From positions 1-64,000 of the IMG/VR virus record IMGVR_UViG_3300035145_003920: a DNA stretch of 64,000 bases; one strand, given 5' to 3'. The position numbers and the translations under genes are program-made. This DNA is from a virus. Numbering within the stretch: the stretch's first letter is position 1; each line of letters opens with the position of its first letter. A model generated the notes under the pieces. It searched no databases, was not told where the DNA came from, and saw only the letters and a program-made list of their open reading frames with translations. Shown in pieces: positions 7,275 to 53,774 of the stretch.

Positions 7275-9068
7275 TTAAAACTGGAATTTAGAACCGATAG
7301 TTGCTGACCAAGTTAGCGGAATACCTGGAAGAGTAGTGCCTATTACATTGCCTCCTATATTGAATGTAAATCTTTGGGTTAAATTTATATCAAAATTAGA
7401 ACCTACTATATAAGTTACATGTTCATTCCATACTATTTCTCCTTTTCCTGGTTTTCTTATATCAAAATTATATGATACTGGATTTAAAGCTAATGCTAAC
7501 ATTGGGGAAATTGTAACTTTTTTAGTTGGGAATGGTTTAGTTCCAAATAATACCCCAGAAGGCATTATCATTACTGTATTATCTATATTAATTATTGTAC
7601 CTGAAATTGCATACCCACCTACAAATCCTTTCCAAAAATTATCTTTTTGTCCCATATAAACATTACTTAACCCACCAGAAAGTACTTTAGTACCATAGAT
7701 GTACATAAAGTTAGCACTAATAGATTGTATAAAGTCAATAGAACCTTTTTCATATATAGACCCAAAATATAAATCTTCTTTTTTAGTCTCTGGGTTATAT
7801 AGATAATATTTTACTTCTCTATCATAATTAAACCAAACATTAGATTGAGATAATCCTATACTAAATTGTTCTAGATTATCCCAAATCATAACATTAGCAG
7901 AATAAGTAGTAGCACCTGTGAGAGAGGATTGAGATAAACCAAAGCTAGCTGCTCTACTAAAAGATCCATCTAAAGCTTGTTGGGTAAGTAAATTAGCAGA
8001 TACATTTATAGGATTACGTTTTTTCTTTTCCTCTTTTTCTTCTTCCTCTTCACTATCTTCTTCTTCAGACTCTTCCTCTTCTTCCTCTTCAGATTCTTCT
8101 TCACTTTCTTCTTCTTCACTTTCTTCCTCTTCTGAAGATTCTTCTTCACTTTCTTCAGATTCTTCTTCACTACTTTCTTCTTCTACTTCTTCCTCACTAC
8201 TCTCTTCTTCAGAGCTTTCTTCAGAGCTTTCTTCACTATTTTCATCTTTATTTTCTTCACTTGATGAATCCTCGCCACCTTCTTCTCCTTCACCACCTGA
8301 ATCTCCTCCTTCTTCTCCTGACGAATTATCATCGCCGCCATCTCCATCCCCAGAAGAGTTATCATTATCTGATGAACCATTATCATTATCCGAGGAATTA
8401 TCCCCAGACGTATCGTCACCCCCAGAATTCCCGCTATCGCCAGAATTATCTCCTCCTGAGTCTCCTCCTGAGTCACCGCCTGAAGAATTGCCTGAGTCCC
8501 CTCCTGAATTATTTGATGAGCCTGAGCTTCCACCTGAGTCACCTCCAGAGGAACCTGAATTACCACTGTCTCCTCCTGAATTTCCTGAATTGCTTGATCC
8601 AGAAGAGCTTCCTGTGTTTCCACTGCTACTTCCAGATCCTGTTGATCCTGTATTTCCATTTGTATTTGTATTAGTTGAACCTGTGTTTGTTGAACCAGTA
8701 TTAGTAGCACCAGATGTGGCATTACTAGCTGCGTTAGTAGCATTACTAGTTGCATTACTCGTAGTATTTTGAGTTGTATTATTTGTAGCTGTATTGGTTG
8801 AACATGGAGATAAATTTTGCCACCATGCATAAGTTTCATCTAACCAAGCTTTTAAAGTACCATTTGTATATTCTGCCCAAGTAAATACTTTTACTCGGTT
8901 ATAAAATGCTACTGTTGCAGAACCATTAACAAAATTAGCTGTAACTACTTTAGTTTCATTAGTACACCTATCTACATAAACATTAGTAATAGTTTGGGTT
9001 TGCCCTACTAGAGAGAAACTCCAAAAGAAAATAAGTATGTAAAATAGTTTTCGCACATTAATGATCAA
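7275..9068 (-). CDS. Secreted outer-membrane-barrel-like protein with long acidic repeat
   Basis: The 597-residue product has a signal peptide (7-22, ending VGQ). A small N-terminal domain with two Cys follows (to about 90). Next is a low-complexity linker of about 270 residues, first Asn/Thr/Ser, then Gly/Ser/Asp, then Ser/Glu runs. A C-terminal domain (about 370-597) of alternating aromatic strands ends in Phe (IGSKFQF), as outer-membrane beta-barrels do. Its start overlaps the CsgG-like gene by 11 bases. A surface protein made during infection, or an adhesin carried on the particle, are both possible. The function is unknown. Confidence 0.8.
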   Translation of the reverse strand: MIINVRKLFYILIFFWSFSLVGQTQTITNVYVDRCTNETKVVTANFVNGSATVAFYNRVKVFTWAEYTNGTLKAWLDETYAWWQNLSPCSTNTATNNTTQNTTSNATSNATNAASNATSGATNTGSTNTGSTNTNTNGNTGSTGSGSSSGNTGSSSGSSNSGNSGGDSGNSGSSGGDSGGSSGSSNNSGGDSGNSSGGDSGGDSGGDNSGDSGNSGGDDTSGDNSSDNDNGSSDNDNSSGDGDGGDDNSSGEEGGDSGGEGEEGGEDSSSEENKDENSEESSEESSEEESSEEEVEEESSEEESEESEEESSEEEESEEEESEEESEEEEEEESEEEDSEEEEEKEEKKKRNPINVSANLLTQQALDGSFSRAASFGLSQSSLTGATTYSANVMIWDNLEQFSIGLSQSNVWFNYDREVKYYLYNPETKKEDLYFGSIYEKGSIDFIQSISANFMYIYGTKVLSGGLSNVYMGQKDNFWKGFVGGYAISGTIINIDNTVMIMPSGVLFGTKPFPTKKVTISPMLALALNPVSYNFDIRKPGKGEIVWNEHVTYIVGSNFDINLTQRFTFNIGGNVIGTTLPGIPLTWSATIGSKFQF

Positions 9069-22349: not shown

Positions 22350-23006
22350 TTAGCCCCTCCAATATTTATCAAACTTTCCTTTAAATGAGAGTTTGAATCC
22401 ATAAAGTTTTTGTTTTTGTTCACTTAAAGCTACTATTGATTCATTACGGTTGTATACTTCTTCTTTACTACCTTTTAAATTCCATCCAATTTTTATTGGA
22501 ACATATAAATTATAATCAACAGAAGGATCTAAATCTAAAAATAAGCGATATTCTTCAAGTGATACTTCAATAAATTGGCTTTCATTTCCTTTTTTAATAA
22601 AATATCTTTCAAAAATACCTCTGTTATAATCTTCTTCTGTTGGATAGGGAATTGATTTAATTGGAGGTCTAGGTGCATCTCCTCTATCTTTTATTTTTCT
22701 AGAAGCATAATAATCAGCATCTTCAATATACATGTTTACTCCTCTAGGTTCATTATGAGCTACTCTTTTAAAAGAAGATTTGTTATTTTTAGGATTAACT
22801 GTTGGGTTTGATAATTCGGATTCTGATGGTTTAATAACTTCTAATGGTTCGCTATTTTTTTGATTTGGGTTAGTACCTGAATAGAAGCTTCCATCAGCTG
22901 TTTTATAATAAGCACCAATATATTCTTCAAATGGGGTTCTAATATATTTTAATTCACCTCCATTTGTATAAAGATCTGTTACTATTTGATGTTGTGGGTA
23001 ATACAT
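22350..23006 (-). CDS. Putative baseplate/virion protein
   Basis: The 218-residue product has no recognised domain. It has Pro/Asn-rich linkers in the first half, and its last 60 residues (YVPIKIGWNLKG, YGFKLSFKGKFDKYWRG) look like strand-rich particle protein. Its start overlaps the hub gene stop by one base, which places it at the end of the tail operon. A structural role is inferred from that. Confidence 0.65.
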   Translation of the reverse strand: MYYPQHQIVTDLYTNGGELKYIRTPFEEYIGAYYKTADGSFYSGTNPNQKNSEPLEVIKPSESELSNPTVNPKNNKSSFKRVAHNEPRGVNMYIEDADYYASRKIKDRGDAPRPPIKSIPYPTEEDYNRGIFERYFIKKGNESQFIEVSLEEYRLFLDLDPSVDYNLYVPIKIGWNLKGSKEEVYNRNESIVALSEQKQKLYGFKLSFKGKFDKYWRG

Positions 23007-26000
23007 TATATTAATTTTACTTTTCTACCATCATCACCTCTCATATTGGTAATTGCTCCATATTTTGCTGTTGCATTTTCTACTGCTACATTAATATTAA
23101 ATTCTAATCCAAAGTGAACACTATCTACATAACCTGCAAAAGTTCCACCCCAAACTAAACCATTTTGAGTAGCAGCTTTATCAAAACCATGGTTAATCCA
23201 AGGCACGTTATTATCTTTCATTAATGATTTACCTGAAGGGGTATCAACATTCATATCAATACTTGCGTAATAATTATGTCTAGATTTACCAGGATCTGCA
23301 TTTGAAGAATTTACTTTCTGTAGTTCTTTTGATTCTTCAATACTTCTTCCTACATCATTTATCCTTAAAGTATACCCCTTATAATTTTCTTCTAAATAAG
23401 TAAAGAATTTACGGAATGCCGGTTTAGCATCTGGATTTAGGGTTTCTATTACTTTAGAAGAATTTACTGTTACATATATTGTACGATCAAGATGTAAATT
23501 AGCCTTTTTATTTCTAATCCATTGATCTCTTTTCATTTTCCTACTTCTACCTTGGGTACCTTTTGGATTTTCAATTTTAGGATATATTCTAAAAGCTTCA
23601 GCATTAATTTCAGTATTGGATGGAACTTTGTATCCTAATAGTTCTCCTTTTCTAATTTTAATAACTAGTTCTTTTGTGTCATCAGGTTGTGGTCCTCTTT
23701 CATTTTCAGGAAGTAAACCTGTTTGGGTTTTCTGAATTTCACTATAAAGGTTTCCAACATTACCTTTTACTATTTTTTTAGTATTTGGAATTGAAAGAGT
23801 ATCTAAATCTGTTTCCCAAGTATTATCTTGAATTTTATGATCAACTTTTTGTATTAAAAATTTTAATGCTTTTGGATATTGATCAGGAAGAAAAGTATTA
23901 TTGATATTTAATTTATTATAAATTTTTATACCAGAAATTCCTTCTAATGTTATATTAAAACCAACAGGAATAAATCCTATTTGAGAAGAAGGGCTTCTAT
24001 TACTTTTATCTTCAGGATTATCAATATTTGGAGTATCATAAATCTCTTTAGTAATAGTATTTATATAAGTTCTAAATGCTGCTTTTCCTCTAGAAATAAA
24101 ACTTGAATCATATTTAAAGTAATTAGCTTTATTAGGATTAACTTTATATTTTTTTTCTACTAAAACCCAACCTGCACTTTTTCTTTCACCATTTTCTCTT
24201 CTATTAGGTTTCCAAACCCAAGTTTGTACTTTAAGTTCAGTACCCCCACCAAAAGCATCCGCTAGGTAAACGGCATAATTATTATTTTGTTCAGCAGATA
24301 ATTCAGATTGGGAAATTAAATCATCATTTGCTGCTAAATGTCTATCATTTTTTAAAGTTCGATTTACAAATTCCTTAATAGACATATTTCCCCTAATTGA
24401 TTCGTGATGTATGCTTCTATTATCTCTTCCATATTCTGATTTTTCAAAACTTTTAAATCTATTATCTGAAGATTTATCAGTTCCTGAAAATGCAACCCAA
24501 GAAGATTTTTGATTCCATATTTTAGCTAATGCATCTGCTCTTTTTTGTAATTCTTTTTCTTCTTTATCTTCTTTAGTCATATTGTTTTGAGGATCTACAA
24601 TTGCAGGGGAAAATCTATCCCTTAATCCTTCATTCCAATATGAAAAAGCAGTTCCATCTTCAACTTTAGTAGTACTTCCTCCAGCAGTAGTTCCTATACT
24701 AATCATAGATGCTAAATCTGGGGTGATTGAGGTTTTGAATGAAATATCTTTTACAAAATTTGATTCTTTTTTGCTTGAATTATAACCATATACTTCTAAA
24801 TCTACTACCTCAACTTTTGGATCAGCTATATCTTCTAAATATCCCGATATTGGATTTTGATCAATAAAAGTAACAATTTTATCTTCTTTTATAACAGGTT
24901 CAATATGATTAACCCCTCCTAAAGCAGAATTTATACCATCACAAATTCTTTTAAAAAATTTAAATACAGATAACTTTCCATCTGTAGTATTAGCAATTAA
25001 TGATGAAGAAATAAAATCATAATTTAAATAAATATTCATTAACCTACCATAAAGCACACCACTTGGGGTAAAACTAACATAGGATTCTAAATCCTTTTCT
25101 AATGATTCTGGGGTTATAATTCCATTAATTCTAAATCTAGGATTATCTTCTCCTAAATCCCCAAATACAGGTTTAAAAATACAAACTCTAGGATCTAAAG
25201 AAATTTGATTTGGAAAATATGAAACTTTATTAGCAAAAACATCATTCTCAATATCTAATTGAGGTGAAATAAAATCTCCAGTTTTAATACCTGGTATAAG
25301 ATTATTTTGAACAAGTTCTAATAACTCTCCAAAACTCATATAATAAAAATATTTGTTATTGCTTTTTAATGTATTTCTATCTATGGATGTTGTTCTACCT
25401 GATTTTTTAGCCCCTATTGTTGCAGCAGCGTTATATGATGAAAAATATCTACTATCATTTTTAAATAAATCATCTAACCCAATTGTAGAAAAAAGATATC
25501 TACCTAATTTATTATCTTGAGCTGAATTTACTATTGGAGTGTCTATTAAGTTTTTAAAACCTATTAATTGATTATCATCTATAGAAGAGGAAATATCTAC
25601 TTGTATTTCATCTAAATCAACAGCAGATACAGGAATATTAGCTTGTATAGATTCTACTACATCTCCTACAGTAATCAATTTTAAATCAATATCGTAACTG
25701 CCATCTGATCCAAAAGTCCAAGTAAAGTTAACTACTTTTCCAAAAAAGCCATCATAATTTCCATGATATTTTATCCTATATTCTTCTATAGTATTAATCA
25801 TAGATAATTGAGTAGTATCATTAGTATTAAACCAAAGATCTTCTATAATAGTATTTTCTGTTGATTTGAAATTACCATCATTATCAATATACTTATCATT
25901 CCCCCATTCAAGCATCATGGTAAATCCTATCCTTAAATAAAGTAATTCTAAAAGAGCAAATTGATATTTGTTATAAGCTTTAATTTGAACATTAGCTTCT

Positions 26001-26524
26001 CTAATAGATCCCCTATTTAATGATTTTACTGTTACTGAGGTAATCCCAGGCATAGGTTGTTGACCAAAATCAGTTCCACCTAAACCATATACTGAATTAA
26101 AATTCCAAATACTTTTAGTTTTATTATATCCTGATCTAGAGGTATACCCTAATCCTTTTCCTTTTTGAAAATTATCTTCACCATATATAGGATTACCCTC
26201 ATCATCATAACTTTCATTAATTATCTCTCTATTTAAACGTGAGGTACCATTAAATAAAATAGTTTTTTCTGCTAATTCAGTGCCTCTAAATTGATTTACT
26301 AAAGTTGGATCCCCAATAACTCTTGCTAATCTTTCTAAACCACCATCTTCTTTAACAATCTCCATTCCTGAAGCTAACTTAACCCAGGCAGTTTGATTAT
26401 TTAAATATTGGATTTGTTCTGGAGTTCTATCTTGACCATATCCAGAATATTGGTCTTTTTGTCTTTGACCAATTTGTTTGAATACATATTCTTTAAATTC
26501 TTCTCCAACTATGTTTCCAGTCAT
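23006..26524 (-). CDS. Baseplate hub protein with C-terminal M15 peptidase
   Basis: The 1172-residue product appears to fuse hub and cell-wall-cutting functions, as T4 splits between gp27 and gp5. The N-terminal part (VYGLGGTDFGQQPMPG, VKAYNKYQF-like strands) fits a hub. The C-terminus from about 1020 is a peptidase M15/VanY-type domain: SRHNYYASID (His1083, Asp1090), GLVWGGTF, and DSVHFGLEF (His1137) give the zinc ligands. It should cleave peptide stems of peptidoglycan during DNA injection. The following LysM-like gene is 2 bases away. Confidence 0.85.
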   Translation of the reverse strand: MTGNIVGEEFKEYVFKQIGQRQKDQYSGYGQDRTPEQIQYLNNQTAWVKLASGMEIVKEDGGLERLARVIGDPTLVNQFRGTELAEKTILFNGTSRLNREIINESYDDEGNPIYGEDNFQKGKGLGYTSRSGYNKTKSIWNFNSVYGLGGTDFGQQPMPGITSVTVKSLNRGSIREANVQIKAYNKYQFALLELLYLRIGFTMMLEWGNDKYIDNDGNFKSTENTIIEDLWFNTNDTTQLSMINTIEEYRIKYHGNYDGFFGKVVNFTWTFGSDGSYDIDLKLITVGDVVESIQANIPVSAVDLDEIQVDISSSIDDNQLIGFKNLIDTPIVNSAQDNKLGRYLFSTIGLDDLFKNDSRYFSSYNAAATIGAKKSGRTTSIDRNTLKSNNKYFYYMSFGELLELVQNNLIPGIKTGDFISPQLDIENDVFANKVSYFPNQISLDPRVCIFKPVFGDLGEDNPRFRINGIITPESLEKDLESYVSFTPSGVLYGRLMNIYLNYDFISSSLIANTTDGKLSVFKFFKRICDGINSALGGVNHIEPVIKEDKIVTFIDQNPISGYLEDIADPKVEVVDLEVYGYNSSKKESNFVKDISFKTSITPDLASMISIGTTAGGSTTKVEDGTAFSYWNEGLRDRFSPAIVDPQNNMTKEDKEEKELQKRADALAKIWNQKSSWVAFSGTDKSSDNRFKSFEKSEYGRDNRSIHHESIRGNMSIKEFVNRTLKNDRHLAANDDLISQSELSAEQNNNYAVYLADAFGGGTELKVQTWVWKPNRRENGERKSAGWVLVEKKYKVNPNKANYFKYDSSFISRGKAAFRTYINTITKEIYDTPNIDNPEDKSNRSPSSQIGFIPVGFNITLEGISGIKIYNKLNINNTFLPDQYPKALKFLIQKVDHKIQDNTWETDLDTLSIPNTKKIVKGNVGNLYSEIQKTQTGLLPENERGPQPDDTKELVIKIRKGELLGYKVPSNTEINAEAFRIYPKIENPKGTQGRSRKMKRDQWIRNKKANLHLDRTIYVTVNSSKVIETLNPDAKPAFRKFFTYLEENYKGYTLRINDVGRSIEESKELQKVNSSNADPGKSRHNYYASIDMNVDTPSGKSLMKDNNVPWINHGFDKAATQNGLVWGGTFAGYVDSVHFGLEFNINVAVENATAKYGAITNMRGDDGRKVKLI

Positions 26525-32779: not shown

Positions 32780-33268
32780 TTAGAAGTTTAATACACAATA
32801 ATCTGGTTGTACAGTCATTGTGAGTTCTTGTGCGGCATTTTCTTGATCCCAGTTATAATCACCAAAGTTAGCTTCAGTAATTATAGCACCTTTAATAATC
32901 CATTCAGATACGATATCTCCTACAGGACCTAATACGTTTACAGTTAAGTCTTTTTTATAGAAATCACTGTATCCATCTCTACCTGTTACTGATTCATGGT
33001 GTAATCTTACCCACTCCATTACAGCTTGAGCACCTGATGGTGTAATAGGATCAAATAATGTGAACTGGATTGTATTCCAAACTGTTTTTCCTTTAACATA
33101 ACGTTGAACGTTAATATGATTTAAAGGCACAGTCCCTTGGGTTACAGATACGGCTCCGACACCCTTCATAATGTACGAAGGAAATCCATCAATATAAAGA
33201 ATAAATCTATTCTTTTGTTTTGGCTCAAATGCCGTATAAAAAATTTCGTTAGGATCTAATACTGCCAT
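32780..33268 (-). CDS. Tail tube protein (gp19-like)
   Basis: The 162-residue product fits the T4 gp19/T4-like tube family: KNRFILYIDGFPSYIMKGV, then VPLNHINVQRYVKGKTVWN and IQFTLFDPI, ending ELTMTVQPDYCVLNF. These polymerise into the inner tail tube. It follows the sheath gene, has its own late-promoter-like element, and is followed by a strong terminator. Confidence 0.95.
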   Translation of the reverse strand: MAVLDPNEIFYTAFEPKQKNRFILYIDGFPSYIMKGVGAVSVTQGTVPLNHINVQRYVKGKTVWNTIQFTLFDPITPSGAQAVMEWVRLHHESVTGRDGYSDFYKKDLTVNVLGPVGDIVSEWIIKGAIITEANFGDYNWDQENAAQELTMTVQPDYCVLNF

Positions 33269-33310: not shown

Positions 33311-35566
33311 TTATTCTGGAAATACTGCTCCTGTTGGTAATACATTGAAATCTAGCATAATAAATTCAGCTGTTCTAGTTGGTTGGATATAAATCTGACC
33401 TACTAATTGATTTCTATCAATTACATCTGGAGTATTGTTAGTATCATCCATTACTACTTTAAATGCGTACAATCCTTGTCTTTGTTGTACTGATTCTAAG
33501 TAAGGATTAACTTGACCTAAGAATATATTTCTTGTAGCAATTGTATTTTGTTCAAATACTAAGTTATCAGCTACTTGAGAGATAAAGCTCTTAAGTTGAA
33601 TTAATAATCTTCTTACATTTACTCTATCTAATGCACTAGCTCTTTTCTGTAGTGTTTTCTGACCAAATACTACAACTCCAGTTCCTGGGAATGTAGCAAT
33701 TGGGTTGATATTAGCTTCGTATAATGAATCTCTATTTGTTGTAGTTAATTTTCTTTCTGCTTTAGTTACATTACCAAGAGCACCTCTTGTTAATCCAGCA
33801 GGAGCAAACCAAGCATCACTTGATCTATCAGTAAATGCATATACTCCTGGAATCATTGTTGAAGCAGGTACCCAAACAACTTGTCCAATATTTGGATCAA
33901 CTGTTTGTAACCATGGCCAGTAAGTAGCAGCATATGAACTATCGAATGCAGCAGCATTACCAATCATTGTACCAATGTTTGTTCCGTATCCATCTAAATC
34001 AATTACTGCGATACAATCTTGACGAGTTTCTGCAGTGCTAACTAATAAAGTAACTGCTGTACTGTGATCTGAATTATTTAATCCAGGTGCAGTTAATAAA
34101 TTAAATCTATAATCATCTTTATTTGATAATAATTGGATTGATGCTGTATAATCTAATTGATTTAAACCTTGAACATCACTACCAATTGCATCATAGAATT
34201 TAGCATTTGCTCCAAATAATTTACCTTCACCTCCAGTAAATGAACCTGAAGAAATTAATGGTAAGCTTGCAGTAAATTCTGATTTAGCATCACCTGCATT
34301 ATCAAAATAATCTGGTGTTTTATAATTTACAGCAGATACTCTTACATATTTACTTCTGTTAATATATTCACCTTGAGAACGTACATATGAATCTGTACCA
34401 TCTTCTACGATTGAGTAACTTGTGTTACCAATTACTTTTTCTACGTAATTTGGTGATTTTGGATCTAATGATAAATTAGACCAAGTTTCTAATATTGATT
34501 TGTTTCTATGGCTATCATTTCCTCTTCTAACTAATAAGCTAAATGTACCTGAACCTGTGTTTCTTGAAGCAATTTCCCATCTTACATTATCTACTGAACC
34601 ACTAGCTAAAGCTCCATTTGAGAATGAAGATCCTGAGTTGTTCATCATTTCACCTTCTGATAGAGTAGTTAATACGAAAGGAACTCCGTTAATAACATCT
34701 CCAGCTCCTAAAGCACTATATGATAAATCACTTGCACTTCCAATTTGTCCACCTGCTACACTTAATACTTCTCCAACAGCATATCCACTTCCTCCTGAAA
34801 CTACTGAAGTTGAAGTAACTTCTACAAATAAATCAGAAGATTGTAATGTAACTATTGAAGCTGTATTACCACCAATTATATCTGAACCAATTGTTAATGT
34901 ATCTCCTGCAGCATATCCACTACCTGTAGAAGTTGCTGTGATTGAAGTTACAGCACTTTCAGATACTACTACATTTAATACAGCACCTGTTCCACTACCA
35001 TTTGTACTTGGGGATAAAGAATAAGTATTATCAACAGCGTCTGATGAGTTTGATGAGATTGATGAAGTTAAAGCATCAAGTCCACCTAATAATTTACCAT
35101 TACCATTACTAGTAACAATAGTTAATGAAGCACCTTCTCCACTTAATGAACCAGTTGGAGTAACTGTATAAGAACTAGCTGCTCCTCCTTCTCCTCCGCT
35201 ACCAACGGATAATGAAGCACCAGTATCAAGAACTCCACTTTCTGCTTCGTTGTACATTCTATCTGAAGATGCACCTTGGAATGAACCAGATACAACTCTA
35301 GTTACTAATAACGATTCCCCACCTTGAGAGAAATAATTGTTAGCTGAAATAGACGTTAAATATGTGTATTCAGAAGATCCACTAGTAACTGCTCCACCGA
35401 AAACTGCTTGATATTCACTAAATGAAGTTACTAATGTAGGAATACCAACAGGACCTTTAGCAGCAGGTCCAACGATAGCAGCTCCTGCTTCTACGGGTTG
35501 ACCTTGAATAAAAGATTGGTCGTTTTCGCGAGCCAATACACCAGGTGAGATTAATGTTTCTGCCAT
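33311..35566 (-). CDS. Tail sheath protein (gp18-like), with repeat insertion
   Basis: The 751-residue product begins ETLISPGVLARENDQS and has VGPAAKGPVGIPTLV and FSEYQAVFGG, typical of contractile sheaths. The C-terminus (RRLLIQLKSFISQVADNLVFEQ, VGQIYIQPTRTAEFIMLDF) is the conserved core. About residues 110-300 form an inserted Gly/Ser-rich beta region with two GSGYAxGE/DxL repeats (near 215 and 259). It would form an outer decoration on the sheath. An unusually long AT leader and a late-promoter element precede it. Confidence 0.95.
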   Translation of the reverse strand: MAETLISPGVLARENDQSFIQGQPVEAGAAIVGPAAKGPVGIPTLVTSFSEYQAVFGGAVTSGSSEYTYLTSISANNYFSQGGESLLVTRVVSGSFQGASSDRMYNEAESGVLDTGASLSVGSGGEGGAASSYTVTPTGSLSGEGASLTIVTSNGNGKLLGGLDALTSSISSNSSDAVDNTYSLSPSTNGSGTGAVLNVVVSESAVTSITATSTGSGYAAGDTLTIGSDIIGGNTASIVTLQSSDLFVEVTSTSVVSGGSGYAVGEVLSVAGGQIGSASDLSYSALGAGDVINGVPFVLTTLSEGEMMNNSGSSFSNGALASGSVDNVRWEIASRNTGSGTFSLLVRRGNDSHRNKSILETWSNLSLDPKSPNYVEKVIGNTSYSIVEDGTDSYVRSQGEYINRSKYVRVSAVNYKTPDYFDNAGDAKSEFTASLPLISSGSFTGGEGKLFGANAKFYDAIGSDVQGLNQLDYTASIQLLSNKDDYRFNLLTAPGLNNSDHSTAVTLLVSTAETRQDCIAVIDLDGYGTNIGTMIGNAAAFDSSYAATYWPWLQTVDPNIGQVVWVPASTMIPGVYAFTDRSSDAWFAPAGLTRGALGNVTKAERKLTTTNRDSLYEANINPIATFPGTGVVVFGQKTLQKRASALDRVNVRRLLIQLKSFISQVADNLVFEQNTIATRNIFLGQVNPYLESVQQRQGLYAFKVVMDDTNNTPDVIDRNQLVGQIYIQPTRTAEFIMLDFNVLPTGAVFPE

Positions 35567-35621: not shown

Positions 35622-35873
35622 CTAAGAGGTTTTTGAACTATCTAAATTTTCTGGTTCAATTGGGGTAATTTCTCCAGTACTCAAGTTTATTTTACCATCT
35701 CCATACTTTTTAGTTAAATCACTACCCAATTCATTTTGCTGTTGCGCCAGCTCTCGATATTGATCAACTAAACCAATTTTTTGTAATTCTAATTCTCCAA
35801 TCGCAAATATAATTTCATTACTTATTTGTTGATTAGATTGTACTTTTTGCAACTCTTCTTTAGACAACTTCAT
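35622..35873 (-). CDS. Small coiled-coil protein between GT and sheath genes
   Basis: The 83-residue product is helical and acidic/Gln-rich (LSKEELQKVQSNQQISNE, KIGLVDQYRELAQQQ-type heptads). It ends in a short strand (INLSTGEITPIEPEN). No family is recognised. Similar short proteins often lie beside sheath genes in marine T4-like phages, so a virion or assembly role is plausible. Its promoter-like element is 8 bases upstream. Confidence 0.65.
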   Translation of the reverse strand: MKLSKEELQKVQSNQQISNEIIFAIGELELQKIGLVDQYRELAQQQNELGSDLTKKYGDGKINLSTGEITPIEPENLDSSKTS

Positions 35874-35902: not shown

Positions 35903-36991
35903 TTATTTAAATTCCAATAGTTTAACTAGTGTTTTGAATACTTTTTGAGGTGTAATTACTTTATGGCAAATATGTTGTAAAGGTGTATTTTTATTTTCAG
36001 GACACCAATTCCAATCTCCTTTATCAAATTGATAATTTTTATTTACCCAACAATTATTACATACAGAATAGTCTTCTACTTTAGTTAAACCTTGTGTAAA
36101 TTCATACCCATAGGGTATAAAATTATTTATCATTAGTGTAGGTTTTCCTACAGCCCAATTAAACCAAGATAACCCTGAACCTAATCCTATAAAATATTCT
36201 GCATGGTATAGGTAGTTATAGGTATTTTCCCAATTTAATTTGGGTTTGTTTATGATATTTTTTTTATTATGGTCTTCATAGGATATATCTACTACTTTAT
36301 ATCCTTTATCATTTAACATTCCTGCTAATTCTTCCCAGTAATTATAAGGCCATTCTTTTAATCCCGCAGTTGAATGTGGTCCTATACAAATGTATTTTTC
36401 TTTTAATGGTCTTTCTTTAGGTTTGAAATCAATACCATGGTTTATTTCTTTATAAGGCAAATTTAATATATCAGTAGCTGCCTGGATTAATGGGATAGTA
36501 TTTGGTTTATTTGGGTGATAAGAACCTTCATCCCATGTATCATTAGTTATAAACCACCCTATTTCAAAACAAGCATAGTAATCTCCACCTTCCCCAGGTT
36601 CAACTAAATTAATATCTTTATATTTAGGTAAATTTTTAAACCATTCATTATGAAAAGTAGATAAAGAAACTTTACATTTATATTTTTTAGCAAATTCAAT
36701 TGCTTGAGGAGCCCATGCTAATGTATCTCCTATTGATTTTGATGATAATGATATTCTAATATGTTTGCCTTTAGGATTAAATTTATGAACTATTTTATTA
36801 TTAACTTTAATTACCCAAGGAGTATGCCATTTTTGACTACATTTACTCCACATATTATTTTGGATATTAGTAGAGTATACAAGTTTATTAGTTTTAGAAT
36901 CAATAAACTCAACAAAATAGTTTTGTTTAACATCCCCTATTACTTCTACTTTAGGAGCATAATCAAAAGAAATTTTTATTTTATTTTTCAT
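35903..36991 (-). CDS. TibC/BAHT-type protein O-heptosyltransferase
   Basis: The 362-residue product matches the bacterial autotransporter heptosyltransferase family. HIRISLSSKSIGDTLAWAP and CKVSLSTFHNEWF belong to its N-terminal Rossmann domain, YICIGPHSTAGLKEWPYNYW to the ADP-heptose-binding domain, and IGLGSGLSWFNWAVGKP to the nucleotide loop. The C-terminal iron finger is present: Cys311-x2-Cys314-x15-Cys330-x11-Cys342. In E. coli TibC the fold attaches heptose to Ser of repeat adhesins. In a tail operon, the acceptor is probably a virion or surface protein. It overlaps the GT4 gene by 11 bases. Confidence 0.85.
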   Translation of the reverse strand: MKNKIKISFDYAPKVEVIGDVKQNYFVEFIDSKTNKLVYSTNIQNNMWSKCSQKWHTPWVIKVNNKIVHKFNPKGKHIRISLSSKSIGDTLAWAPQAIEFAKKYKCKVSLSTFHNEWFKNLPKYKDINLVEPGEGGDYYACFEIGWFITNDTWDEGSYHPNKPNTIPLIQAATDILNLPYKEINHGIDFKPKERPLKEKYICIGPHSTAGLKEWPYNYWEELAGMLNDKGYKVVDISYEDHNKKNIINKPKLNWENTYNYLYHAEYFIGLGSGLSWFNWAVGKPTLMINNFIPYGYEFTQGLTKVEDYSVCNNCWVNKNYQFDKGDWNWCPENKNTPLQHICHKVITPQKVFKTLVKLLEFK

Positions 36992-38060
36992 TTAATAATG
37001 ATTCATAAAATTTAATATGGTTATTAGCAAATTCACTAACTGAATTAGTAATATTTTTAGAATTATATTTAATAGGTGAATGTATTGTTTCTATTAAATT
37101 ATTTTTATCAGTAAATAAATTACCTGTTAATGGTGTAATAAAAGGAGTATATTCATCTCCATAATGATCTAAGTTATAAGCCATTATCTTAATATTATTT
37201 GAAATAGCTTCTTTTAATACTATTGGATTACATTCCCAATTAGAAGTAAATAACATTAAATCTGACATTTTAAAGAAAATATCTGTATCATTTCTTTCTC
37301 CCCAAATTAAAACATTAGGAGGAAATTCTTTCATTAATGGTTCCCAATATTTTTTAAAGTTAGGAGCTTGGTTACCTACAAAATGAAAAATATAAGTGTG
37401 TCCATATTTCTCATATAAGTTTTTTGCTATTTCTAAAGCATATCCTTGATTTTTTCCTGGGGTCCATAATCCTATATTTACTATATGGTATTCACCTTTT
37501 AATAAATAACCTTTTTCAGTTAATATTTCATTCCTTGTTTTAGATGATTGTATAAGAGGATCAATTGGGAATGTAATTAAACTTTTTTTACCTTTTTGGT
37601 CTTTGAAAGTGTTTTCTATATGATGAGGTGTAACACAAGCATATCCATCAGGCTCATGTAATTTTCTTTCTGTAGGATTAAAATAAATATTATGACAAGT
37701 TTCTACTACTTTCCAAGGATGTTTTTTATCATATAATTCTTTTTGCAGCTTAGGATCAAATGAATTACCTGGGTCAAATCCTTCTGGAATTTCTTCTATG
37801 TGGATAATATTAATATCTTTTTCATAACAAAGATTTATAATACCTTTTTGAGCATTTTTATTTCCTAAAAAGCTATAAAAATTTTCTCCTAATAATTTTT
37901 GAATTTGTTTTCTTTGAACAACATAATCATTGCTGTAGCACTTCCATTCAACTACATAAACTTCCCAATCAGTATGTTGTTGTATTGCCTCAATACGTTT
38001 TAATAAAAACGCGGGCATTCCTCCTGTGCTTAAATGTGGTGCTATAAATAAAACTTTCAT
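36981..38060 (-). CDS. GT4-type glycosyltransferase
   Basis: The 359-residue product has the GT-B fold of family 4. MKVLFIAPHLSTGGMPAFL is the N-terminal glycine loop, HIVNIGLWTPGKNQGYALE starts the nucleotide-sugar domain, and the segment with FTSNWECNPIVLKEA matches the conserved E-x7-E motif. It overlaps the heptosyltransferase downstream, so the two may add successive sugars to one target. The genes are more AT-rich than their neighbours, hinting at acquisition. Confidence 0.85.
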   Translation of the reverse strand: MKVLFIAPHLSTGGMPAFLLKRIEAIQQHTDWEVYVVEWKCYSNDYVVQRKQIQKLLGENFYSFLGNKNAQKGIINLCYEKDINIIHIEEIPEGFDPGNSFDPKLQKELYDKKHPWKVVETCHNIYFNPTERKLHEPDGYACVTPHHIENTFKDQKGKKSLITFPIDPLIQSSKTRNEILTEKGYLLKGEYHIVNIGLWTPGKNQGYALEIAKNLYEKYGHTYIFHFVGNQAPNFKKYWEPLMKEFPPNVLIWGERNDTDIFFKMSDLMLFTSNWECNPIVLKEAISNNIKIMAYNLDHYGDEYTPFITPLTGNLFTDKNNLIETIHSPIKYNSKNITNSVSEFANNHIKFYESLLNEK

Positions 38061-38093: not shown

Positions 38094-38978
38094 TCACGGA
38101 ACATCATTAATATTCCCTGTTGTTTCTGAGGTAATAGTAATTTTAGATTTTGAATTAAACTTTTTAATTGCATTTAAATCTTTTTGTATTACATCAGGTA
38201 CAATATAACCTCTTAAATTTATATTAAATGTACCTTTTACTAATCTATCTTTATCAGCTGTTATTTCTACTGCTGTTGTAAACTGATCAATACGAGTATT
38301 GAATTTAAATCTTTCAGGATCACCCCAATATGAATCAGAAGCATATTCTACTGCTTCAATTACTTTATTTAATTGTTCCATATAATATGTCTGTATAATA
38401 CAACTATAAGTTATATTAAGATAATCAGGAACAACTACAGCATTAAATTCTTTAGTAGCAATTCTATTATTTAATAAATTAAAATTATTATAAGTATTTT
38501 TCTTATTAAATGCCTTTTGAAATCCTGCATATAAATTAGCATTAGGTGAGTTAGCATCTAATTTATTATATAATGTTCTATCTTTTGCAATAGTATCTCT
38601 TTTAATTACAATAATAGGTAACATTACAGATCCACCTTTATCTCTATAAAATCCATCTCTTTGAAATGATTTCCATCTTTCAGGATTACCGTAGATAATA
38701 GGAACTGATCTTCTTTCACCATTTTGATATACAAATGGTTTTATAACATTATTAAAATAATAAAATACTGCTTCATCAATATCCTTGATACCAACTGAAA
38801 ATTGTTTTGAGGTATCTTTCTTTTGACTAATTTTAGTTGATCTATTAAATTCAATTCCAGTTTGAGATTTATTTGGATTTAAATCTTTATTAGGATTACC
38901 CCTTTTAGTATCAAAAGGCTTAACTAAGCTTTTGCTAATTTCTTCTTGTTTTTTAGGATATGGTTTAAAATTAGGCAT
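38094..38978 (-). CDS. Tail completion/sheath stabiliser-like protein (gp15/gp3 position)
   Basis: The 294-residue product has a Lys/Pro-rich N-terminus and a conserved core. DIDEAVFYYFNNVIKPFVY is followed by VPIIYGNPERWKSFQRDG, YMEQLNKVIEAVEYAS, and VKGTFNINLRGYIVPDV. This recalls the T4-like tail completion/neck proteins that follow gp13 and gp14. It overlaps gp14 by one base. The precise T4 counterpart is inferred from gene order. Confidence 0.7.
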   Translation of the reverse strand: MPNFKPYPKKQEEISKSLVKPFDTKRGNPNKDLNPNKSQTGIEFNRSTKISQKKDTSKQFSVGIKDIDEAVFYYFNNVIKPFVYQNGERRSVPIIYGNPERWKSFQRDGFYRDKGGSVMLPIIVIKRDTIAKDRTLYNKLDANSPNANLYAGFQKAFNKKNTYNNFNLLNNRIATKEFNAVVVPDYLNITYSCIIQTYYMEQLNKVIEAVEYASDSYWGDPERFKFNTRIDQFTTAVEITADKDRLVKGTFNINLRGYIVPDVIQKDLNAIKKFNSKSKITITSETTGNINDVP

Positions 38979-39509: not shown

Positions 39510-40655
39510 CTATCCTATATAAATTGTATACGGAACTTGTTTTAATTCCGTTTGTTTAAATTCTGCTTCTTGTGCTCGTCTTTCTAATAATGATTTACGA
39601 GAAGTTTCATCAAAATATCCTCTTAATCTTTCTATTAATGATGCTTTTTCTGCAGTTCCAGCTGTAATTAAATCAGATTGGTTTAATGTTACTTCAGCAT
39701 TTGGAATTGGGATATTACTATATTTACCTCTTACATATCCTAGCATTTCTTTTGCTAATGCTAATGTGTATTCAAATATCCATTGTCTTCCTACACTATT
39801 AATTTGAGCATAAGTAGGATTAGAATAAGGAGTATTAGATACATTGGTAACATCACCTGGACTGTCACTAACACTTCCAGATATTCTTTCTTCTCTTTCA
39901 ATGTATTCAAACCAGTAATTTCTACTACCTGAAGATGGAACTGGGAATATTCTTAATTTATTGTTTTTTAATTCAAAGCTATATTGAGATCTACGAACTT
40001 GATCATTTAATTCAATTGCTTGAATTGCTTGTAAATCAAAATTTAAAGGCATCATCAAGAAGTTAATAGCAGGACTCATACTACCAAATCCAAAACTATC
40101 AAACATATTTTGAGTACCAAATCCAGTTCCTACATAAGGATCATAATATCTTGTAATTGCTGGAGATGCTTGGTAAAATACTCTTTTAACTTCTATACTA
40201 CCAGATATACCTTGATCTAATGCCCATTGTGCTAAGTCATAATCTTGTTGACTTGCTGTCATTACAAATGAACCAGTGTAATGAGGTACATTTCCTCCAC
40301 TACCTGCTTCAGCACCATATTGTTCTGTTAATCTTACAATAGGTTCAAAGTTAGGAGTTATAATACTAGTATTTAAATTACTACCAGTTGATAATCCTTC
40401 TAAAGATAATTGATTATCTCTAATAATATGAGCATACAATTCATTTCCATAAGTAGTTACTGCTTCTTCAAATGCAGTAAAGAAAGAACCTGATTGTAAC
40501 TCGACGTCTACTAATGGATAACCTAATCTTTGAGCACAGAATTTGGCAACTTTAACTGAATCCGATTGGAAATCAGTATCATCGTTATAGAAGCCAAAAG
40601 GGACTGCTGCTGAATCCCAACTAGGGTTACCATCATATATGGGAATATTAGCCAT
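39510..40655 (-). CDS. Neck protein (gp13-like)
   Basis: The 381-residue product has the T4-like neck pattern: VKVAKFCAQRLGYPLVDVEL, FFTAFEEAVTTYGNEL, then IQAIELNDQVRRSQYSFEL with FEYIEREERISG and RQWIFEYTLALAKEMLGYV. It forms the head-completion ring where the tail docks. Two copies of the late-promoter-like element (40665-40678 and 40692-40705) lie upstream, the second within the end of phoH. Confidence 0.82.
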   Translation of the reverse strand: MANIPIYDGNPSWDSAAVPFGFYNDDTDFQSDSVKVAKFCAQRLGYPLVDVELQSGSFFTAFEEAVTTYGNELYAHIIRDNQLSLEGLSTGSNLNTSIITPNFEPIVRLTEQYGAEAGSGGNVPHYTGSFVMTASQQDYDLAQWALDQGISGSIEVKRVFYQASPAITRYYDPYVGTGFGTQNMFDSFGFGSMSPAINFLMMPLNFDLQAIQAIELNDQVRRSQYSFELKNNKLRIFPVPSSGSRNYWFEYIEREERISGSVSDSPGDVTNVSNTPYSNPTYAQINSVGRQWIFEYTLALAKEMLGYVRGKYSNIPIPNAEVTLNQSDLITAGTAEKASLIERLRGYFDETSRKSLLERRAQEAEFKQTELKQVPYTIYIG

Positions 40656-52819: not shown

Positions 52820-53350
52820 TTAGAGGCCAGTAATATTCAATATTTGTTGAATACGTTCATCTGTAGATCCAGATATTTGATTAATATTATTACATAAATG
52901 GCTATATCTTTTAATTAAAGTAGTAATAGTAAAATCAATTATATCTCTATAATGTTCATCAGTTTCTCTTACACCATTATCTTCAATAGCAAGCCCATGA
53001 GGAGAAATATAAAAAATGTGATCATATTCTCTAATAAATTCTTTTGCATAATTTTCAAATGATTCTTTATCACTATGATGAATTGATTTAGCATTTAAAG
53101 TAAAAGCAATAACATCAAATACTGTTCTATCTGTAATAATATCAGGTTGAATTAACTCAGCACAACGTTCTGCTAAAAATACAGTTTGACCTTTCAATGT
53201 AGAATCAGTATTAAGTGGAATACCTTGCTCCATTAAAAACTTAGAACGCTCTGTTCTAAACATATAATCCTTAAATTGCTCTGTTTCTTTTAAAGCATTA
53301 ACTAATGTAGTTTTACCTACACTCATTGTACCACACAAACCTATTTTCAT
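52820..53350 (-). CDS. AAA_28/NadR-type P-loop kinase
   Basis: The 176-residue product begins MKIGLCGTMSVGKTTLVNAL, whose Walker A (GTMSVGKTT, 7-15) starts right after the first strand. PDIITDRTVFDVIAF is the DR-containing acceptor segment, and ISGSTDERIQQI is a C-terminal motif seen in NadR-type nicotinamide-riboside kinases. A small-molecule kinase is likely; the substrate is unknown. It follows the nucleotidyltransferase by one base, so a two-gene NadR-like unit is one reading. Confidence 0.75.
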   Translation of the reverse strand: MKIGLCGTMSVGKTTLVNALKETEQFKDYMFRTERSKFLMEQGIPLNTDSTLKGQTVFLAERCAELIQPDIITDRTVFDVIAFTLNAKSIHHSDKESFENYAKEFIREYDHIFYISPHGLAIEDNGVRETDEHYRDIIDFTITTLIKRYSHLCNNINQISGSTDERIQQILNITGL

Positions 53351-53351
53351 A

Positions 53352-53774
53352 TTATTTTTTTAATAACCAACTACTAGATTGGATTTTATCACCCATTCCA
53401 TCTACCAATTTAATACCTAATTTATTACAAGTCACGCTTTCTGGAATACTTTCATTAGTTTGATCTCCACCATTTGCAAATGTTAAATCCCAATAATCAC
53501 CATACTGATCATATAAGTGTTTTAAAGTTTCATTTTGGGTAGAATCTTTATCTATAGAAAGTAAAGCTAAACCTACACCTTTAATTGATTGAACTATTTT
53601 TAATCTTTCATTTTCAGGCATAAATTCTTTAGATCCTTTTAATTCTCTTTGTAAATCAGAATTAACTATAACAATTAAAAAGTCACCCTCATTAGAAGCA
53701 TTTTCAAATAATTCTAAATGACCAACATGAATTGGATTAAAATAACCAGATACTATAACCGCTTTTCTTTTCAT
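53352..53774 (-). CDS. HldE-C/cytidylyltransferase-like nucleotidyltransferase
   Basis: The 140-residue product has the nucleotidyltransferase fold. AVIVSGYFNPIHVGHLELF contains the HxGH site (His16, His19), and NSDLQRELKGSKEFM then FANGGDQTN match the ADP-heptose adenylyltransferase (RfaE domain II) type. It ends KIQSSSWLLKK, like the family's SSxxI tail. It would charge a sugar or related phosphate with a nucleotide. The TibC-like enzyme at 35903 uses ADP-heptose, so a link is possible. Confidence 0.75.
   Translation of the reverse strand: MKRKAVIVSGYFNPIHVGHLELFENASNEGDFLIVIVNSDLQRELKGSKEFMPENERLKIVQSIKGVGLALLSIDKDSTQNETLKHLYDQYGDYWDLTFANGGDQTNESIPESVTCNKLGIKLVDGMGDKIQSSSWLLKK

Follow-up and report, generated by a model that had tools for sequence, protein, structure and literature searches.

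The window analysed here, 64,000 nt in length, is part of a 77,467-bp IMG/VR record of a marine T4-like myovirus that encodes homologues of portal gp20, terminase, gp32, sheath and tube. By capsid protein, its closest isolates are the Flavobacterium phages immuto (56%) and Microcystis phage Mel-JY01 (50%). The tail operon of the window runs from an adaptor homologue through two conserved ORFs to a GT4-type glycosyltransferase gene, a BAHT-like glycosyltransferase gene, an 83-aa ORF, the sheath and the tube (Table 1). The two enzyme genes overlap, as the earlier note on this DNA had stated, by 11 nt on the minus strand, and the Ser/Gly-rich insertion that it had described in the next structural protein is recovered by alignment of the sheath. 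Its placement of the pair between neck and sheath genes holds in outline: sheath and tube lie downstream and an adaptor homologue lies upstream, but the 83-aa ORF intervenes before the sheath, and the two ORFs beside the GT4 gene have no convincing family match, "neck" being a name taken from position only. Elsewhere in the window, positions 23006-26524 (-) encode a 1172-aa tail-region protein with a Peptidase_M15_4 domain at its C-terminus.

Table 1. Features of the tail-operon locus, in window coordinates.
Feature	Coordinates	Strand	Evidence or remark
BAHT-like (TibC-fold) glycosyltransferase, thumb-less variant, 362 aa	35903..36991	-	TIGR04414, PDB TibC, AlphaFold model
Iron-finger segment (predicted), codons C311 to C342 (CxxC-x15-C-x11-C)	35966..36061	-	Alignment to TibC
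Asp89 codon, equivalent of TibC catalytic base Asp110	36725..36727	-	
GT4-type glycosyltransferase, 359 aa	36981..38060	-	Pfam PF00534 (Glycos_transf_1) 4e-9
83-aa ORF, right border of island	35622..35873	-	Beside sheath with or without island
Tail sheath with Ser/Gly-rich insert (about residues 108-292)	33311..35566	-	phrog_23 1.7e-76, Pfam sheath domains
Tail tube protein	32780..33268	-	phrog_4542 5.5e-24
Conserved ORF "neckA" (named from position), left border of island	38094..38978	-	
Head-tail adaptor-like protein	39510..40655	-	phrog_211 3.7e-10

The BAHT-like ORF is matched by the NCBIfam model TIGR04414 (193.7 bits, E = 4.7e-57), and its best solved relative by sequence is TibC (PDB 4rap; E = 1.1e-29, or 1.8e-71 with a profile). 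The AlphaFold model of the enzyme (pLDDT 91.8) matches the same structure in Foldseek (8e-28, TM 0.86/0.81) and displays the fold of TibC, with an N-terminal beta-barrel and a GT-B catalytic domain. Scores of this order exclude a family match by chance, and the enzyme is very likely a member of the TibC/BAHT-fold family, and the profile match to BAHT, whose absence would have counted against the earlier proposal, is in place. The four cysteines of TibC constitute a ferric site, and roles have been assigned to its residues Asp110, Thr226, Lys230 and Trp305 (Yao et al. 2014, PMC4358343). In the phage enzyme, the cysteine spacing C311-x2-C314-x15-C330-x11-C342 is exactly as had been claimed and aligns with TibC Cys339/342/358/370, forming the predicted iron finger, whereas D89, T208, K212 and W276 are, by alignment, the equivalents of the four active-site residues. 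These residues and the four cysteines are invariant across 38 aligned phage relatives, and the dN/dS of the gene (0.19-0.28) indicates purifying selection. Judged by the residues kept, the active site is intact.

The attribution of the full BAHT plan to this protein nevertheless proved too strong: fold, cysteines and active-site residues conform to it, but the thumb and the equivalent of Arg286 are missing. The stretch that holds the thumb comprises 23 residues versus 33 in canonical bacterial BAHTs (ten short); the beta-hairpin thumb with its two hydrophobic tip residues is absent, and the model shows no hairpin. Arg286 of TibC, which contacts adenine, corresponds to Thr257, and this position is non-Arg in every phage sequence of the alignment but one. 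Because, in addition, the TIGR04414 score lies below the equivalog cut-off of 200 bits, we regard the enzyme as a thumb-less BAHT-like variant rather than a strict BAHT, although it may still work like one. Both activity and dodecamer formation of TibC depend on the tip of the thumb (PMC4358343). Structure prediction recovers the TibC fold but no thumb hairpin for the dodecamer contacts considered in the earlier note; with the thumb missing, such contacts are not supported, and its loss would predict a smaller assembly, perhaps a back-to-back dimer. No autotransporter acceptor is encoded near the enzyme, and models of heptose-target repeats had no match in ten large proteins of the window. In a tree of 81 sequences, the canonical enzymes stand apart from most of the thumb-less ones; 39 phage sequences and one MAG contig form a single clade (100/97), outside which two more phage BAHT lineages are placed. 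Two contigs assigned to Winogradskyella and bacterium MAGs (L171, L170) contain genes for phage sheath/tube or for a near-identical phage BAHT and are probably phage contigs in bacterial bins.

Relatives of the BAHT-like enzyme are encoded in at least 595 viral stretches. Among the close relatives of the window phage, occupation of the site flanked by the left conserved ORF and the 83-aa ORF follows an all-or-nothing pattern, with the enzyme present in 30 distinct loci and a bare junction, mostly of 40-60 nt up to the 83-aa ORF, in 30 others. Comparison of the window with locus L003 revealed 94-99% protein identity for the flanking genes versus 71-83% for GT4, BAHT, the 83-aa ORF and the sheath, a divergence that suggests exchange of the island, although it is not unique to the island, given that two tail genes further on differ even more. 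The Flavobacterium immuto phages, which are close isolated relatives, carry neither BAHT nor Gly-Ser/Thr-Ser repeats. More distant phages often encode GT4 and BAHT as a single fused polypeptide, and the extra domains of such fusions include FkbM methyltransferase, GT25, a DXD-type GT and PIG-L. The phage BAHT domains of "Glycosyltransferase Aah/TibC" from an uncultured Caudovirales phage (UniProt A0A6J5SVC1) and of the Mel-JY01 protein WWT39291, which carries an FkbM methyltransferase annotation, are 36-39% identical to the window enzyme; unlike it, both belong to larger fusion proteins, and their annotation is automatic only.

The genomic context in relatives bears on the donor sugar. In two of them (L090, L097), three overlapping genes behind BAHT, in the same island, encode an HldE-like adenylyltransferase, a HAD protein and an HldE-like kinase; a cupin is added to the HldE-like genes behind BAHT at the same site in L277 and L282, and the same pairing of HldE-like enzymes recurs near the terminase in a separate BAHT lineage (L312, L315). 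The kinase, which is shorter than HldA, has TIGR02198 as its best family (120 bits, followed by full-length HldE with 81 and ribokinase with 52), and the adenylyltransferase matches TIGR02199 (109 bits), all HldE-like proteins of the relatives scoring below the respective equivalog cut-offs of 345 and 181.5. The best PDB match of the kinase, both by sequence and by fold, is HldA. The presence of these genes beside BAHT suggests that the donor is ADP-heptose or something closely analogous, and heptose is likely to be the sugar transferred. The HldE-like pair is absent from the 77-kb record of the window phage, which may be a fragment. Cassettes of HldE-like kinase, adenylyltransferase, HAD protein and cupin also occur in many phages without BAHT nearby (viral contigs L262-L300). 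A TIGR02199 match within the window (53352-53774, 45 bits) was considered as an ADP-heptose gene and dropped because its neighbour is an AAA_28 ORF, the two looking like a split NadR-type pair; the adjacent AAA_28 kinase-like and cytidylyltransferase-like ORFs at 52820-53774 (-) are probably such a pair, acting in NAD salvage.

A protein glycosyltransferase using a nucleotide sugar other than ADP-heptose is unlikely, though this is the alternative that survives best. It would account for the replacement, in the window and in all phage sequences but one, of the arginine with which TibC reads adenine N1, and for the lack of any HldE-like match in Mel-JY01; it would also fit hosts, cyanobacteria for example, that may lack ADP-heptose. 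Yet in two separate lineages the genes for the HldE-like kinase and adenylyltransferase lie next to BAHT or overlap it, and the equivalents of TibC Thr226, Lys230 and Trp305 are retained, both of which count against such a donor.

As for the acceptor, three relatives with this tail operon (G072, G073, G075) encode (Gly-Ser/Thr-Ser)n proteins within the island, on the stretch from the left conserved ORF to BAHT; the largest of these extend to 2744 aa and 510 triplets. Their PHROGs label is tail-fibre-like, with matches helped by composition. In a scan of flanking regions, many other phage BAHTs proved to have collagen-like (Gly-Ser/Thr-Ser)n proteins in their vicinity, and outside the clade of the window phage the repeat is present in 19 of 20 long BAHT-positive records, taken as whole records. 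The 77-kb record that holds the window has no such array, and neither do 15 other BAHT-positive records from the clade of this phage; all of these records may be fragments. The repeat occurs in four of eight BAHT-positive versus none of 26 BAHT-negative records selected by adenylyltransferase (p = 0.0015), and BAHT in 17 of 37 repeat-selected versus none of 21 Gly-Pro-Thr-selected phage records (p = 1.5e-4), with the reservation that these p values ignore phylogeny and that several contigs or records are near-copies. The Gly-Ser/Thr-Ser fibre repeats are thus fairly likely to serve as the acceptor in relatives. In bacteria, secreted-looking GTSGTSG proteins are encoded near thumb-less homologues at 8 of 15 loci versus 1 of 24 for homologues of canonical length, and that single locus is a phage contig. 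Thumb-less homologues beside small secreted-looking GTSGTSG proteins are found in Methylococcaceae and other Gammaproteobacteria (L173, L181, L186, L188), a pairing that we propose as the bacterial counterpart of the putative phage one. In Mel-JY01, a long Gly-Ser/Thr-Ser ORF (L161:2-2398, +) lies opposite an annotated minus-strand CDS.

We favour, with a probability of roughly 0.6, the view that the two genes make up a phage-encoded cassette for protein O-glycosylation, lodged in the late tail operon as an exchangeable island and directing heptose to fibre-like virion repeats. Against this view weigh the absence of both the repeat array and the HldE-like pair from the record of the window phage, the Thr in place of Arg286 and the sub-threshold scores of the HldE-like proteins. 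We infer the donor sugar, the acceptor, the presence of the modification on virions and its benefit as follows. The thumb-less BAHT-type enzyme would most likely use ADP-heptose to place heptose on Ser/Thr of a structural protein of the phage, after which GT4 would extend this sugar or add another. In relatives, the acceptor would most likely be the collagen-like (Gly-Ser/Thr-Ser)n fibre-like protein encoded beside the enzyme, and some phages would bring their own HldE-like kinase and adenylyltransferase for the donor. The modification might benefit the phage by, for instance, altering adsorption, giving protection or allowing escape from binding. Glycosylation of the particle, which the earlier note had suggested, is likely to be the role of the pair, a conclusion strengthened by the linkage of ADP-heptose genes and repeat proteins to the enzyme in relatives.

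Were the enzymes instead to act on the host, modifying its LPS or a surface protein or glycan, they could block superinfection or change the phage receptor. GT9 heptosyltransferases such as WaaC are indeed more distant relatives, and phage GTs are generally known to alter host surface sugars, as PMC12619734 also notes. We consider this rather improbable: the gene sits in a structural operon, the fold is that of TibC, which modifies proteins (TM 0.86, compared with about 0.5 to WaaC), and the linkage is to repeat structural proteins. Quite improbable, in turn, is the reading suggested by the earlier note, in which the enzyme heptosylates serines of the Ser/Gly-rich insert that the neighbouring sheath carries. 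The near-adjacent position of the gene and the Ser-rich composition of the insert would fit such a role, and BAHT lies beside sheath genes, in another orientation, in some distant phages as well (L032, L035, L037). Across 56 distinct sheaths, however, insert and enzyme vary independently (p = 0.36): the insert is present in 20 and absent in 9 of the enzyme-positive cases, and present in 22 and absent in 5 of the enzyme-negative ones. Even among close relatives, L086 and L088 possess the insert without BAHT, whereas L129 and L139 possess BAHT without the insert. Because the insert is equally frequent without the enzyme, its role as the acceptor is not supported. Finally, that half of the close relatives lack the island might suggest a passenger pair without a role in the particle and on its way to decay, which is hardly credible given the dN/dS values, the invariance of catalytic and cysteine residues and the occurrence of the enzyme in hundreds of viral contigs.

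A few bacterial adhesins are known to be O-heptosylated. Bacillus BclA is a glycosylated collagen-like protein with Gly-Pro-Thr repeats; the phage proteins resemble it in having a G-x-y repeat with hydroxyl residues as the putative carrier of dense O-glycans, but their repeat is Gly-Ser/Thr-Ser, the enzymes are others, and the phage records with Gly-Pro-Thr repeats lack BAHT. Glycosylation of mycobacteriophages reportedly involves enzymes and sugars unrelated to the BAHT pair. There, phage-encoded GTs reportedly modify capsid or tail proteins of the virion (Freeman et al. 2023, cited in PMC12619734), a similar arrangement in another host group. TibC and AAH (Yao et al. 2014, PMC4358343) share with the phage enzyme the beta-barrel, the GT-B domain, the active-site residues and the four-Cys iron finger; unlike them, it has the shortened thumb region and the Arg286 substitution, and its gene lies without an autotransporter in a tail operon beside GT4, with relatives often fused to other GTs. 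In the literature library searched, nothing relevant was returned on phage BAHT, phage ADP-heptose or glycosylated phage sheath, nor any functional study of the annotated phage Aah/TibC and Mel-JY01 proteins.

Hundreds of phage contigs encode this kind of enzyme; a candidate acceptor is often its neighbour, and genes for making the donor are sometimes located next to it as well. Such arrangements suggest that many phages coat their own fibres with sugar. We give even odds to the broader proposition that heptosylated, collagen-like (Gly-Ser/Thr-Ser)n fibres are the product of a system widespread among phages, in which a thumb-less BAHT subfamily would act on the phages' own repeats, some phages having their own ADP-heptose supply, from one exchangeable tail-operon island, the same pairing being applied to secreted-looking proteins of some bacteria. 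If this is true, sugar-coated fibres would change adsorption, stability and recognition in many environmental phages, and repeat protein, enzyme and donor would make a simple system for reconstitution in laboratory E. coli.

Two candidate acceptors encoded in the record of the window phage itself deserve mention. Outside the window, at the end of the record (G000:76239-77465, equivalent to L163:12239-13465, minus strand), lies the gene of a protein made of STTTTFNTS units (64% Ser+Thr) and cut by the record end, with glycan genes, among them a GT25, as neighbours and methyltransferase and PhyH genes nearby; it is a possible acceptor of this phage. As a general partner of the enzyme it was rejected, having no match in 51 other records, and one partial copy and one weak relative were found in viral contigs, in a search limited by low-complexity filters. 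The second candidate acceptor is encoded within the window, at 7275-9068 (-). Its product has a signal-peptide-like start, continues with a long low-complexity stretch, first of Asn/Thr/Ser/Gly and then of Ser/Glu, and ends in an outer-membrane-like C-terminus. This secreted-looking layout is odd for a phage; a similar ORF is present in record G002.
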